From Crassaminicella thermophila (lineage in GTDB: Bacteria > Bacillota > Clostridia > Peptostreptococcales > Thermotaleaceae), in NCBI RefSeq assembly GCF_008152325.1, contig NZ_CP042243.1, forward strand, positions 310,001 through 374,000: a DNA stretch of 64,000 nt. The letters run 5' to 3'. Under the pieces are notes generated by a model that saw only the letters and a program-made list of their open reading frames with translations, had not been told where the DNA came from and searched no databases. How positions within the stretch are numbered: position 1 is the first letter of the stretch; each line of letters starts with the position of its first letter. The position numbers were made by a program, and so were the translations under genes. This document shows, one piece after another, positions 20,745-51,262 of this stretch.

Positions 20745-21230
20745 ATGAGAGTTGGTATGGGCTATGATGTACATAAATTGGTAAAAGGAAGGAAATTAAT
20801 CCTTGGTGGAGTAGAAATTTCTTATGAAAAAGGATTATTAGGACATTCTGATGCAGACGTTTTGCTTCATGCTATAAAAGATTCGCTGCTTGGGGCAGCA
20901 GCACTTGGAGATATTGGTAAGCATTTTCCAGATACGGATGAAAGGTTTAAGGGTGTTTCAAGTATAAAATTATTATTAGAAGTAAAAAATATGCTTATTA
21001 ATAGAGGTTATAAGGTTAATAATGTAGATGCAACTATTATTGCTCAAAAGCCAAAGATGGCGCCTTATATTGAAGAAATGAGAAAAAATATAGCAAACGC
21101 ATTAGGAGTAGAAGTGGATAGAATAAATGTAAAGGCTACAACTACGGAAGGGTTAGGATTTACTGGTACAGGTGAAGGAATTGCTGCTCAAGCAATAGCA
21201 AGTATTGAGAGATTTTCTGTTGACAAATAA
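20745..21230 (+). CDS. ispF: 2-C-methyl-D-erythritol 2,4-cyclodiphosphate synthase
   Basis: Cyclises CDP-ME 2-phosphate in the MEP pathway. 161 residues. Metal-binding Asp and His are in GYDVHKL (residues 6-12) and [11 protein letters not shown], and the signature [17 protein letters not shown] is present near the C-terminus. RBS AAGGAGGG. Its last codons contain the -35 element of the proS T-box promoter. Confidence 0.97.
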
Positions 21231-21248
21231 GGTTGAATTGGTTAATAT
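21220..21248 (+). promoter_or_regulatory. Promoter of the proS T-box transcript
   Basis: TTGACA (21220-21225), 17-base spacer, TAATAT (21243-21248). The -35 lies inside the ispF stop region. Expected start near 21255. Confidence 0.8.
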
Positions 21249-21254
21249 GTACTT

Positions 21255-21410
21255 AAGTTAAATATAGATAAAAGCTGTGATAGGGAATATTAGAATAGAT
21301 AATCCTTTATAACGAAACTAAGAAAGTTCCATTTGGAATTAACTAGAGTGGTACCGCGGAAAAATTTAACCTTTCGTCTCTATAGAGCTGTTGAGATGGA
21401 AGGTTTTTTA
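21255..21410 (+). ncRNA. Short T-box leader upstream of proS
   Basis: The T-box sequence AGAGTGGTACCGCGG is at 21345-21359. The terminator is AACCTTTCGTCTC (21369-21381) with GAGATGGAAGGTT (21394-21406) plus T run. A stem III-like hairpin AGTTCC/GGAATT lies at about 21325-21340. Between the inferred start and the T-box there are only about 90 bases, far less than a canonical Stem I plus Stem II. The 5' part (GATAGGGAATATTAG, then AATAGATAATCC) resembles the beginning of a usual clostridial Stem I. A CCT proline codon occurs at 21304-21306, on the 3' side of a possible short stem. It is either an ultrashort T-box or one with an internal deletion. Confidence 0.8.
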
Positions 21411-21430
21411 ATGTAAAGGAGAGAATAGTC

Positions 21431-23149
21431 ATGAGAATGTCAAGAATGTATCTTCATACCTTAAGAGAAGTGCCTAGTGATGCAGAAATACCAAGTCATA
21501 AATTATTGCTCAGAGCAGGAATGATTAAAAAGCTTGTTTCTGGAGTTTATGGCTATATGCCTTTAGGCTATAGGGTGATAAGGAAAATTGAGCAAATTAT
21601 TAGAGAAGAGATGGACAAAAAGGGTGCTCAAGAATTATTAATGTCAGCTGTTCAACCAGCAGAACTTTGGAAAGAATCAGGAAGATGGTTTGACTTTGGT
21701 CCAGAAATGTTCCGTTTAAAGGATAGGCATGATAGAGAATTTTGTTTAGGGCCTACCCATGAAGAGGTATTTACTGATATTGTAAGAAACGATGTGAAAT
21801 CCTATAAGGAGCTTCCTTTAAATATCTATCAAATCCAAACAAAGTATAGAGATGAAAAAAGACCAAGATTTGGACTTATGCGATCTCGTGAATTTATAAT
21901 GAAGGATGCGTATTCTTTTGATAGAGATTGGGAAGGATTAGATAAAAGTTATTGGGATATGTATGATGCTTATAGCAAAATTTTTACAAGATGTGGACTA
22001 AAATTTAGACCTGTTGAAGCAGATACAGGGGCAATGGGAGGAAGTGATTCCTATGAGTTTACAGCCTTATCTGATTTTGGTGAAGGGGTAATTGCTTATT
22101 GTGATGCGTGTGATTTTGCAGCTACAACAGAAAGAGCCGCTTGTTTAGTAGACATTCCTAAGCAGGATTTAGAGGAAAAGGAATTAAGAGAGATTCATAC
22201 ACCGAATGTAAAGACGATTGAAGAACTTGAAGGATTTTTAAATGTAGAAGGACATAGATTGTTAAAAACTCTTTTATTCAAAGTAAAAGGTAAATTGGTT
22301 GCAGCAGTAATAAGAGGAGATCGAGAATTAAACGAAACAAAATTAATTAATGCTTTAAAGATTCCAGAACATGAATTAGAGTTTGCAACCCCAGAAGATA
22401 TTAAAGAATATACAAAAGCAGAAGTTGGATTTGCAGGACCGGTAGGACTTAAAAATGTAATGATAGTTGCAGATGAAGAGGTTCCTAAGCTTAAGAATTT
22501 GATTACAGGAGCTAATAAAACAGATTATCACATAGAAAATGTAAACTATGGAAGAGATTTCGAAGCAGATATTATAACTGATTTAAAATTAATCCAAGAA
22601 GGAGACAAATGTCCAAAATGCCAAGGGCCTGTTAAATTAGCAAGAGGTATTGAAGTTGGACAAATTTTCAAATTAGGAACAAAATATAGTGAAGTTTTTG
22701 GTGCTAAATATACAGATGAAAATGTAAAAGAACAGCCTATGGTGATGGGATGTTATGGTATAGGTGTTTCTAGAACTATGGCAGCTATTATTGAACAGCA
22801 CCATGATGAAAATGGTATTATATGGCCGTTGGAAGTAGCACCTTATCACGTTATAATTTCTGTGGTAAATGTTAAAAATGAAGAACAAATGAAGCTAGGT
22901 GAAAAATTATATCAAGAGTTATTAAATGCAAATGTAGAAGTGTTGTTAGATGATCGTCCTGAAAGAGCAGGCGTTAAGTTTAAAGATGCAGATCTTATAG
23001 GAATTCCAATTAGAATTACAGTAGGAAAGAAAGCATCAGAAGGAATTGTGGAGTATAAGTTAAGAAGCGAAGAAGATAAACAAGAATTTATGTATGATAA
23101 AGCAGTTTCAAATGTATTAGAAATGTTGAAAAAAGCTGGTATAAAGTAA
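21431..23149 (+). CDS. proS: Prolyl-tRNA synthetase (bacterial type)
   Basis: Charges tRNA-Pro. A class II synthetase of 572 residues with motif 2 ([24 protein letters not shown]), an INS editing domain inserted between motifs 2 and 3 that removes Ala-tRNA-Pro, motif 3 ([15 protein letters not shown]) and a C-terminal anticodon-binding domain. RBS AAAGGAGAG lies upstream of ATG 21431. It is controlled by the T-box leader directly upstream. Confidence 0.97.
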
Positions 23150-23154
23150 AATAC

Positions 23155-23174
23155 ATACCCTCTACAGAGGGTAT
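23155..23174 (+). terminator. Hairpin after proS
   Basis: ATACCCTCT (23155-23163) and AGAGGGTAT (23166-23174) form a near-perfect hairpin six bases after the stop, with only TTTG as tail. It is probably a weak terminator. Confidence 0.55.
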
Positions 23175-23298
23175 TTGAGCTTGTTGATAAAGTTATATTT
23201 ATATTGAAAAATAACGCTTATAAACAAAGCTTTATAGAAAACTAAGATTCATTCGCTTTTATTTTCCACTCATAAATTATATTTTATATACAATAAGA

Positions 23299-23326
23299 TA
23301 CCCTCTAAAGAGGGCATTTTCTTTTT
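23299..23326 (+). terminator. Second copy of the same hairpin, with a better T tract
   Basis: ATACCCTCT / AGAGGGCAT (23298-23317) repeats the sequence of the hairpin at 23155 and is followed by TTTCTTTTT. Together they may form a tandem terminator for proS. The roughly 125 bases between them show no coding potential. Confidence 0.65.
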
Positions 23327-23375
23327 AGAATATAAACAGAAGAAGAGGGTAAAATATGATACAAAATCAAATTTG

Positions 23376-23444: not shown

Positions 23445-24926
23445 ATGACGGTAAGGGTTCGATTTGCACCAAGTCCTACAGGATTTGTACATATAGGGAG
23501 TTTAAGAACGGCATTATATAATTATCTCTTTGCAAAGCAAAAAGGGGGTAAATATATACTAAGAGTAGAAGATACTGACCAAACAAGGTATGTTGAGGGT
23601 GCTATAGAAAATATGATTGAGGCTTTAAAATGGGCTGGTATTGAGCATGATGAAGGAGTTATGCTAGAAAACGGAAAACTAGTGCAAAAAGGAGAATATG
23701 GACCATATATACAGTCAGAAAGACTAGAAATATATCAAAAGTATATTAATCAATTGATTGAAAATGGACATGCTTATTATTGTTTCTGTTCGAAGGAAAG
23801 ATTAGACGAAGTAAGAGAAGCCCAAAAAGAACGTGGAGAAACTGCAAGATATGATGGACATTGTAGAAATATTTCAATAGAGGAAGCAAAGAAAAGGATT
23901 GCAAATGGAGAAGAGCATGTAGTAAGATTAAAGTTGCCTGAAAATCATGATATAGCTTTTCATGATGTTATTAGAGGAAATGTAGTTGTTAATACGAATG
24001 ATTTAGATGATCAAGTTTTAATAAAAACAGATGGATTCCCAACATATCATTTTGCAGTTGTAGTAGATGATCACCTAATGGGAATTACCCATGTAATTCG
24101 TGGAGAGGAATGGGTACCTTCTACTCCGAAGCATGTATATACTTATGAAGCCTTTGGTTGGGAAGCGCCGAAATTTGTACATCTTCCAAACATATTAAAT
24201 AAAGATAGAAAAAAATTGAGCAAAAGACAGGGAGATGTTGCTGCAGAGGACTTTAAAAATAAAGGGTATCTTCCAGAAGGATTGATAAACTACTTAGCAT
24301 TAGTAGGATGGAGCCCTGAAGACAATCAAGAGATTTTTTCTATGGAAGAATTAATAGAGAAATTTTCTTTAGAGAGAGTGTCAAAAAGTGGAGGAGTATT
24401 TGATACAGATAAATTAAATTGGATAAACAGTCATTATATAAAAGAAGCTCCTATTGATGAGATTACTGATTTAGCTATACCACATCTTGTGAAAGCAGGA
24501 TATATTAAAGAAGATGAAAAGAAAGAAAAATATCAATGGTTAAAAGATATGGTAACTGTATTAAAAGATAGAATCTCTTACGTAGGAGAGATTACAGAAA
24601 AAGTAGATATTTTCTTTAAAACAGAAATAAAACCAGCAGATGAACAAGCAGAAGAAATATTAAAGTTAGACCATCTACCACATCTATTAGAAGTATTTGC
24701 AAAAAAGGTTGAAGAAGCTGAACAGATAGATGAAGAGTTTGGAAAAAAAGCATTTAAAAGTATTCAGAAAGAAACAGGGTATAAAGGGAAAAATCTTTTT
24801 ATGCCAATTAGAGTAGCATTAACAGGAGAAGTACACGGACCAGATTTGCCACTTATGATGAAAGTTTTAGGGAAACAAAATATATTATCACGCATAGAAT
24901 ATGTAAAAAAACACTTATTAAGATAA
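23445..24926 (+). CDS. gltX: Glutamyl-tRNA synthetase
   Basis: Charges tRNA-Glu (and, in a non-discriminating enzyme, tRNA-Gln). A class I synthetase of 493 residues with the HIGS form of the HIGH motif (residues 16-19, [20 protein letters not shown]) and the KMSKS equivalent KKLSKRQG, then a helical anticodon-binding domain. RBS TAGGAGGAAG. It has its own promoter. No T-box was seen in front of it. A separate GlnRS in this window suggests it may be discriminating, but I cannot tell. Confidence 0.97.
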
Positions 24927-24939
24927 ATGCAGTGATTAG

Positions 24940-25161
24940 GAGAGTAGGTTTAAAAGAACTGACAGAGAAAAGCTATCGTAGGCTGAGAGTAGCTTAAGTA
25001 TTTTTTAAACTGAAATGCACCTATGAGCAGTTGGCTGAAATATGAGTGAGTAGGTCAAACCGGTTAGCACCGTTACATGCAAAAAAGCTGAGGATATATC
25101 CTAAGCAGAGTGGAACCGCGGAAAACCTTCGTCTCTGTATGTGAGAAGAAGGTTTTTTTAT
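24940..25161 (+). ncRNA. T-box leader, probably cysteine-specific, upstream of cysE-cysS
   Basis: A full-size T-box. The 5' domain has the AG-rich bulge elements (GGAGAGTAGG, GGCTGAGAGTAGC), the specifier region GAAATGCACC contains TGC, a cysteine codon, at about 25014-25018, and the T-box AGAGTGGAACCGCGG is at 25107-25121. The terminator is AACCTTCGTCTC (25124-25135) with GAGAAGAAGGTT (25143-25154) plus seven T. The downstream genes for cysteine synthesis and Cys-tRNA charging agree with the specifier. No separate promoter is obvious, so it may be reached from gltX. Confidence 0.92.
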
Positions 25162-36985: not shown

Positions 36986-37135
36986 TGTTGCAAATAAAAT
37001 TGAACATAAACCGTAGACAGTAGGTACCATTTAGGTTTAAAGTTGCCTACCGAGGTAATTATCTATAGATTCGAAAGAGTTTAGGAGCCTCTCTATGTCT
37101 ACGGTAGAGAGGTTCTGTTATTATAATAACAGAAC
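36986..37135 (+). ncRNA. Ribosomal protein L10 leader
   Basis: A structured leader in the place where L10(L12)4 autoregulates. The outer stem CCGTAGACA (37011-37019) / TGTCTACGG (37096-37104) encloses GTAGG (37020-37024) / CCTAC (37046-37050). An alternative 11-bp hairpin (37085-37095 with 37105-37115) would take TGTCTACGG into its loop and is terminator-like. A further 24-base perfect palindrome is at 37112-37135. Mutually exclusive folding suggests attenuation. Confidence 0.85.
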
Positions 37136-51054: not shown

Positions 51055-51262
51055 GTGTGTTTGCGGGACTGCGATGACGTGAAAGGTTGCCAAAACAATG
51101 CTTTGGGAAATTTTCACTGAGAATGTCCGTTCAAGAATCGGGCGACAGGATGTCAGTAGACTTTCGCTATAAAAAAACAAACGGGAACACCCGGGAGAGT
51201 GTACTGAGGTTCTAGTCGTACGTAAAAAAAACAATGCGTGCGATGAAAAGGAGGGAAACACA
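51055..51262 (+). ncRNA. Ribosomal S10 operon leader
   Basis: About 205 bases of leader with several hairpins and higher G+C than nearby spacers: GTGAAA/TTTCAC (51079-51117), CGGG-AACA-CCCG (51182-51193), and TCGTACGT/GCGTGCGA (51216-51223 with 51236-51243) just before the RBS. Structured S10 leaders are known in Clostridia and related Firmicutes. Position and hairpin content fit, but the covariance model could not be run here. Confidence 0.65.

Follow-up and report, generated by a model that had tools for sequence, protein, structure and literature searches.

A proline T-box remnant, shortened by an internal deletion, in the proS2 leader of Crassaminicella thermophila

The leader of the prolyl-tRNA synthetase gene in the window (the whole stretch of 64,000 nucleotides that was analysed) raises the question of what becomes of a T-box when the part carrying its specifier is lost. 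The initial annotation had described a leader in which about 90 bases separate the start from the T-box, which opens like a normal Stem I, jumps to a Stem III-like hairpin and retains the T-box bulge and the terminator. Two readings had been offered: either a CCT triplet serves as the specifier of an ultrashort stem, or the leader is internally deleted and its specifier has been lost. The description itself holds well. The transcript start is inferred from the promoter at 21220-21248 to be at about 21255, and the TGGTACCGCG core begins at 21349, 94 nt past this likely start; bulge and terminator are both retained, and the alignment with 12 relatives shows the retained blocks that had been described, the 5' end of Stem I followed by Stem III. 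The cysteine T-box that had been noticed about 3.7 kb away as full length lies 3.6-3.8 kb downstream. The features of the locus are the following.

20745 to 21230, plus strand: ispF, the gene 5' of the leader (NCBIfam TIGR00151, 227 bits), with the -35 box of the proS promoter inside its 3' end.
21220 to 21248, plus strand: leader promoter TTGACA-17-TAATAT, with 10 of 12 consensus positions.
21272 to 21309, plus strand: Stem I 5' strand, orphaned by the deletion of its 3' strand (alignment with 12 relatives).
21304 to 21306, plus strand: CCT triplet; its counterpart by homology belongs to the 5' strand of Stem I, not to the specifier.
21306 to 21310, plus strand: deletion junction, with 105-109 nt gone; TTA is common to both edges, which makes the exact point ambiguous.
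21320 to 21324, plus strand: purine string of Stem III, AAGAA, the last base being G in 12 of 12 relatives (RRRxG).
21325 to 21340, plus strand: Stem III hairpin AGTTCC-ATTT-GGAATT (fold prediction and relatives).
21345 to 21381, plus strand: antiterminator (Rfam alignment), with the T-box bulge TGGTACC at 21349-21355.
21368 to 21409, plus strand: intrinsic terminator and T run, with a 13+3 bp stem of -17.6 kcal/mol.
21431 to 23149, plus strand: proS2, bacterial-type prolyl-tRNA synthetase (NCBIfam NF006625, 842 bits).
24923 to 25139, plus strand: cysteine T-box, full length, specifier TGC, 114 bits, preceding cysE-cysS; a comparison within the same genome.

Both the antiterminator/terminator alternative and the T-box bulge UGGN are present in the leader, according to the Rfam alignment and to folding. 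By its position the leader also precedes an aminoacyl-tRNA synthetase gene, proS2, whose start at 21431 is separated from the T run by 21 nt that include the ribosome-binding site.

The choice between the two readings depends on the relatives. The family was sampled as 16 genomes, including the window's own genome (G000), which alone represents its genus. Thirteen family genomes carry an archaeal-type proS (proS3, TIGR00408), and by sequence all 13 have a full-length T-box ahead of it. In 12 of the 13, ispF and proS3 flank this T-box; in G013 the two genes are found on separate contigs, and its leader, with a distance of 245 nt from TTGACA to TGGTACC, was left out of the alignment set of 12 relatives. 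The same distance is 129 nt in the window versus 233-238 nt in the 12 relatives, in which ispF is likewise the upstream neighbour of the leader; the difference goes beyond chance. Aligned with them, the window leader agrees in its promoter and in how Stem I begins; a gap of 105-109 nt follows, and the match picks up again with the final bases of Stem IIA/B and the purine string ahead of Stem III. The missing stretch comprises the apical part of Stem I, the entire Stem I 3' strand with the specifier, Stem II and most of Stem IIA/B. The specifier loop of the relatives reads GAACCC or AAACCC in 11 cases and GAACCT in one (the specifier of G013 reads GAACCA), and the window leader has no such sequence. 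The comparison with the proS leaders of relatives, which had been named as the way to recognise a deletion, thus returned 12 of 12 leaders of full length at the homologous position, and the second reading, internal deletion with loss of the specifier, is sustained, since the specifier falls inside the part absent from the window. Judging by the alignment, the leader goes back to a canonical proline T-box of the transcription-attenuating type that lost about 106 nt net, probably in one single event.

The structure of the relatives was predicted with RNAalifold, and two-sided changes were observed in 19 of the 62 predicted pairs of the whole leader, a figure that includes six untranscribed promoter pairs. 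In Stem I, 10 of 26 predicted pairs show two-sided changes, and their 3' partners fall in the stretch missing from the window. On the 5' side of the deletion point, the window leader is closest to that of G007 (66/81), lower values being obtained with G003 (33/52) and G008 (22/34); the highest similarity to G007 fits descent from an intact, G007-like T-box. On the 3' side, similarity hardly differs among the 12 relatives (0.66-0.77, with G001 at the top), so that this half says nothing about descent.

The covariance search that had been suggested does find the leader, below threshold and with Stem I positions skipped. The RF00230 match covers 21259-21384 (45.8 bits, E 4.3e-9), passes over 84 model positions in the Stem I part and remains under the gathering score of 93 bits; the full-length leader preceding proS3 in G007 reaches 129.5 bits. 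Across the whole genome the model had 27 matches; 25 of these exceed the cut-off and measure 172-276 nt, compared with 126 nt for the match in the proS2 leader. The remaining match scored 15.9 bits, and no T-box core was found in it allowing up to 2 mismatches. For the family-wide RF00230 search, best matches only were considered.

The positions retained by the leader were examined against columns identical in the 12 relatives. All invariant columns are kept in the promoter (21215-21252; 18/18), from the start to Stem I (6/6), from the junction to the purine string (6/6) and in the terminator (21368-21412; 17/17), the Stem I 5' strand keeping 9 of 10 and Stem III with the antiterminator (21324-21384) 33 of 34; the last two segments, that of Stem III and the antiterminator and that of the terminator, overlap. 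In leave-one-out controls each relative misses at most one column per segment, except G011 in the terminator (17/23). A G to T change at 21290, where G is invariant in the 12 relatives, turns the S-turn AGTA (AGUA) into ATTA (AUUA), and at 21324 the final G of RRRxG, equally invariant, has become A; Stem III with its AA flank is present. According to passages of PMC7583486, the RRRxG purine string belongs to the sieve by which aminoacylation is sensed. Among the columns common to at least 11 of the 12 relatives, the window also deviates at 21326 and 21399; at each of these its base recurs in one relative. The loss of the two invariant Gs, in the S-turn and in RRRxG, points to relaxed constraint, but is no more than suggestive, the positions being few. 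The nearly untouched antiterminator, bulge and terminator would also fit a leader that is still in use. However, a recent deletion would explain the conservation of the 3' part equally well, because what is left of Stem I is conserved to a similar degree (9/10).

Taken at the level of function, the leader, a remnant of a canonical proline T-box, probably exerts a fixed, leaky attenuation on proS2, blind to tRNA(Pro). The deletion of about 106 nt removed the parts that identify the tRNA: the apical platform of Stem I, its 3' strand including the specifier, Stem II, and Stem IIA/B for the most part. Passages of PMC7583486 present Stem I as the obligate domain that decodes tRNA identity. The old promoter would still fire and its transcripts would run into the terminator; since the T run is only 21 nt from proS2, any transcription of proS2 from the leader promoter must pass this terminator. 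Without the specifier and the Stem I-Stem II body, uncharged tRNA(Pro) would no longer be recruited, the switch would be stuck, and proS2 would be made at a constant level through leaky read-through. Both the loss of the tRNA(Pro) response and the constitutive read-through are what we infer from the parts that are gone. With regard to classification, the leader is a T-box remnant; by the definition of the T-box family it does not count as a functional member, since its decoding domain was looked for and is missing.

Other mechanisms can be proposed for such a leader. The presence of Stem III, the T-box bulge and the antiterminator, with 33 of 34 invariant columns kept, would suit a sensor consisting of the discriminator only, in which the Stem III-antiterminator unit would recognise uncharged tRNAs of every kind by their NCCA end and antiterminate upon general tRNA uncharging, irrespective of the codon. 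Passages of PMC7583486 call the discriminator necessary and sufficient for the sensing of aminoacylation, but work on glyQS, as reported in passages of PMC5951919, has the tRNA captured first by Stem I and the antiterminator weak. Moreover, the G of RRRxG is replaced by A, though the G found two bases on (21326) might substitute for it, and one relative (G003) retained just the terminator; such a sensor is therefore unlikely here. The further proposal that a proline-specific switch has been turned into a general aminoacylation-stress switch for proS2, sensing total uncharged tRNA via the NCCA end, is somewhat more doubtful again.

It is likewise improbable that the leader is constitutively ON, with a new fold of the shortened RNA blocking the terminator and proS2 derepressed. 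At 8.6 kcal/mol, the energy gap between the terminator fold and a forced-antiterminator fold of the window leader is indeed narrower than in any of the 12 relatives (9.2-20.3 kcal/mol), the lowest value among 13 family leaders, but full-length T-boxes of the outgroup genomes G023 and G034 show still smaller gaps (3.8 and 4.4), and the terminator, with its 13+3 bp and T run, belongs to the minimum-energy fold of the full leader.

The first reading of the initial annotation, a functional ultrashort T-box in which CCT at 21304-21306 pairs with the anticodon of tRNA(Pro), has very little in its favour. CCT does encode proline, and the triplet forms part of the 3' arm of a hairpin at 21282-21307, but its homology to the Stem I 5' strand speaks against a role as specifier: 5 of the 12 relatives have CCT at that place, and in these the GAACCC specifier sits on the Stem I 3' strand. 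Among the relatives this position shows CCT, CCA, TCT, TCA, GCC, CCC or CTT, and fold prediction for the window leader places the triplet in the base-paired stem. Neither the AGUA S-turn nor the GAA-plus-codon context of a specifier is left; a leader without a 3' strand, with AUUA for AGUA and with CCT outside the specifier position does not correspond to an ultrashort Stem I T-box. The hairpin 21282-21307 was also considered as a selected substitute for Stem I and rejected: it folds with -4.9 kcal/mol, yet the same stretch of the full-length T-box of G009 gives -5.4, and once the 3' arm of the terminator is removed, the window leader folds no better than shuffled sequences (z 0.17). There is no need to place the transcript start farther 5', within ispF, the promoter at 21220-21248 being kept in the 12 relatives; its TTGACA box was found in G003 and G008 too. 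Finally, an assembly or sequencing artefact, the 106 nt being really present in the organism, is most improbable even with the genus represented by one genome, as the assembly consists of 2 contigs and is 99.81% complete, the flanks are also substituted at invariant positions, and related losses occur in two other genomes.

These two genomes, G003 and G008, carry proS2 directly after the leader position, without a proS3 match, and at neither locus was an RF00230 match obtained at E<=0.1. The G003 leader retains the promoter, the first Stem I bases and a strong terminator (-19.2 kcal/mol), and has no antiterminator; that of G008 retains the promoter and a short 3' scrap with the T run. In G003 (locus L029) the terminator stands right before proS2, and no proS3 was found in this assembly, which is 76% complete and split into about 330 contigs. 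A terminator without antiterminator in G003 suggests that the stuck state proposed for the window leader occurs in a relative. Intact, beheaded, terminator-only and nearly erased stages are all found at one ispF-proS locus within one family.

The distribution of these stages was compared with an RpoB tree covering 14 of the 16 family genomes (G002 and G012 had no match). The window genome is placed loosely with G007, G014 and G015, G008 with G013, and G003 with the group of G001, G005, G009, G006 and G011. A clade of G000, G003 and G008 is rejected (p-AU 1.9e-5), and so is each pair of damaged genomes (0.0017, 0.00058 and 0.0023, the pairs having been picked after viewing the tree). A single decay event shared by the three genomes was discarded on the rejection of this grouping. 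The T-box losses look independent, as the RpoB tree rejects the grouping and none of the three genomes shows a proS3. In the ProS2 tree a clade of the three is not rejected (p 0.316), and the IspF tree is mostly unresolved; proS2 may have been transferred between lineages, which would be compatible with the ProS2 tree.

The state of the leader goes together with the kind of synthetase gene. No TIGR00408 match was found in the window genome at E<=1e-60, and proS2, with one match at E<=1e-100, is the only ProRS gene found in it. A damaged leader is present in 3 of the 3 family genomes without proS3 (G000, G003 and G008) and in 0 of the 13 that have it. In other words, no archaeal-type ProRS gene, the gene behind the intact T-box of the relatives, was found in any genome with a damaged leader. 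On the RpoB tree, the fewest changes of proS3 presence are three. A causal tie leading from proS3 loss to T-box loss was considered and set aside, the 2-3 independent contrasts being too few for a test. G023 and G034, which belong to another family of the order, give no proS3 match and yet retain a full-length proline T-box before proS2; loss of the T-box is thus not obligatory in the absence of proS3. As a side observation, among loci L139, L145, L031 and L034 and the genomes of family f1, some genomes (G002 and G005) have a bacterial-type proS2 behind proS3. In G001, G007, G012, G014 and G015 a divergent proS2 paralogue stands just after proS3 instead, with 43-54% identity from about residue 106 on.

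With respect to known systems, the closest comparison is the proline T-box of the RF00230 type that precedes proS3, for instance in G007. Both leaders are alike in promoter position, Stem I 5' strand, Stem III, bulge, antiterminator and terminator, and both lie upstream of a prolyl-tRNA synthetase gene, proS2 in the window and proS3 in the relative. However, the G007 leader has the specifier, the Stem I 3' strand, the apical platform, Stem II and Stem IIA/B, which the window leader has lost (in the case of IIA/B, for the most part). T-boxes with an ultrashort Stem I, such as those before ileS in Actinobacteria, resemble the window leader in being short and in standing before an aminoacyl-tRNA synthetase gene, but they carry the codon in a short Stem I and are mostly translational, whereas the window leader is without a specifier loop and has a terminator as its output. 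The ultrashort type was reportedly described by Sherwood and colleagues in 2015 (cited in PMC7583486). The discriminator domain (Li et al. 2019, as cited in passages of PMC7583486) includes Stem III, the flanking purines and the antiterminator with its bulge, all of them also found in the window; in comparison with that domain, the proS2 leader is a natural leader reduced to it, in which the G of RRRxG is A.

No natural T-box leader without a specifier was recognised among the titles and abstract openings listed for open-licence PMC literature, and passages of PMC7583486, PMC7778990, PMC5951919, PMC6197855, PMC2494555, PMC9413887 and PMC12452182 contain no mention of one. A stepwise series of T-box loss was likewise not met in the parts of the open-licence PMC literature covered. 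The family series illustrates such a stepwise loss of a tRNA-sensing riboswitch in front of an essential gene, apparently in parallel and going with a synthetase swap. Two questions become testable with this series: how a T-box behaves once its decoding half is gone, and whether a synthetase swap alters the need for tRNA control.

Short leaders of this kind appear to be rare. Screening 393 genomes of the order for a short spacing from promoter to T-box gave 3 with the pattern, and by eye the window's alone is a short T-box; the same pattern with full-length spacing occurs in 186 of the 393. As the pattern requires exact TTGACA and GGTACCGCG, these counts come from a narrow screen and are lower bounds. 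The other two candidates were rejected as beheaded T-boxes: locus L181 (G279) is full length by eye, with a second GGTACCGCG in the Stem I region besides the copy in the T-box, and L182 resembles coding sequence. A T-box core is present within 600 nt upstream in 53 of 77 named proS loci, 3 of 80 having been left out as too short upstream. A T-box ahead of proS is common, not universal.

Some other elements of the window deserve mention. An L10 ribosomal leader (36993-37128) and an S10-Clostridia leader (51066-51148) each score over the Rfam cut-off. Between proS2 and gltX, at 23150-23330, there are two similar palindromes, TACCCTCTACAGAGGGTA and ATACCCTCTAAAGAGGGCAT, about 140 nt apart, which by eye look like a duplicated terminator.
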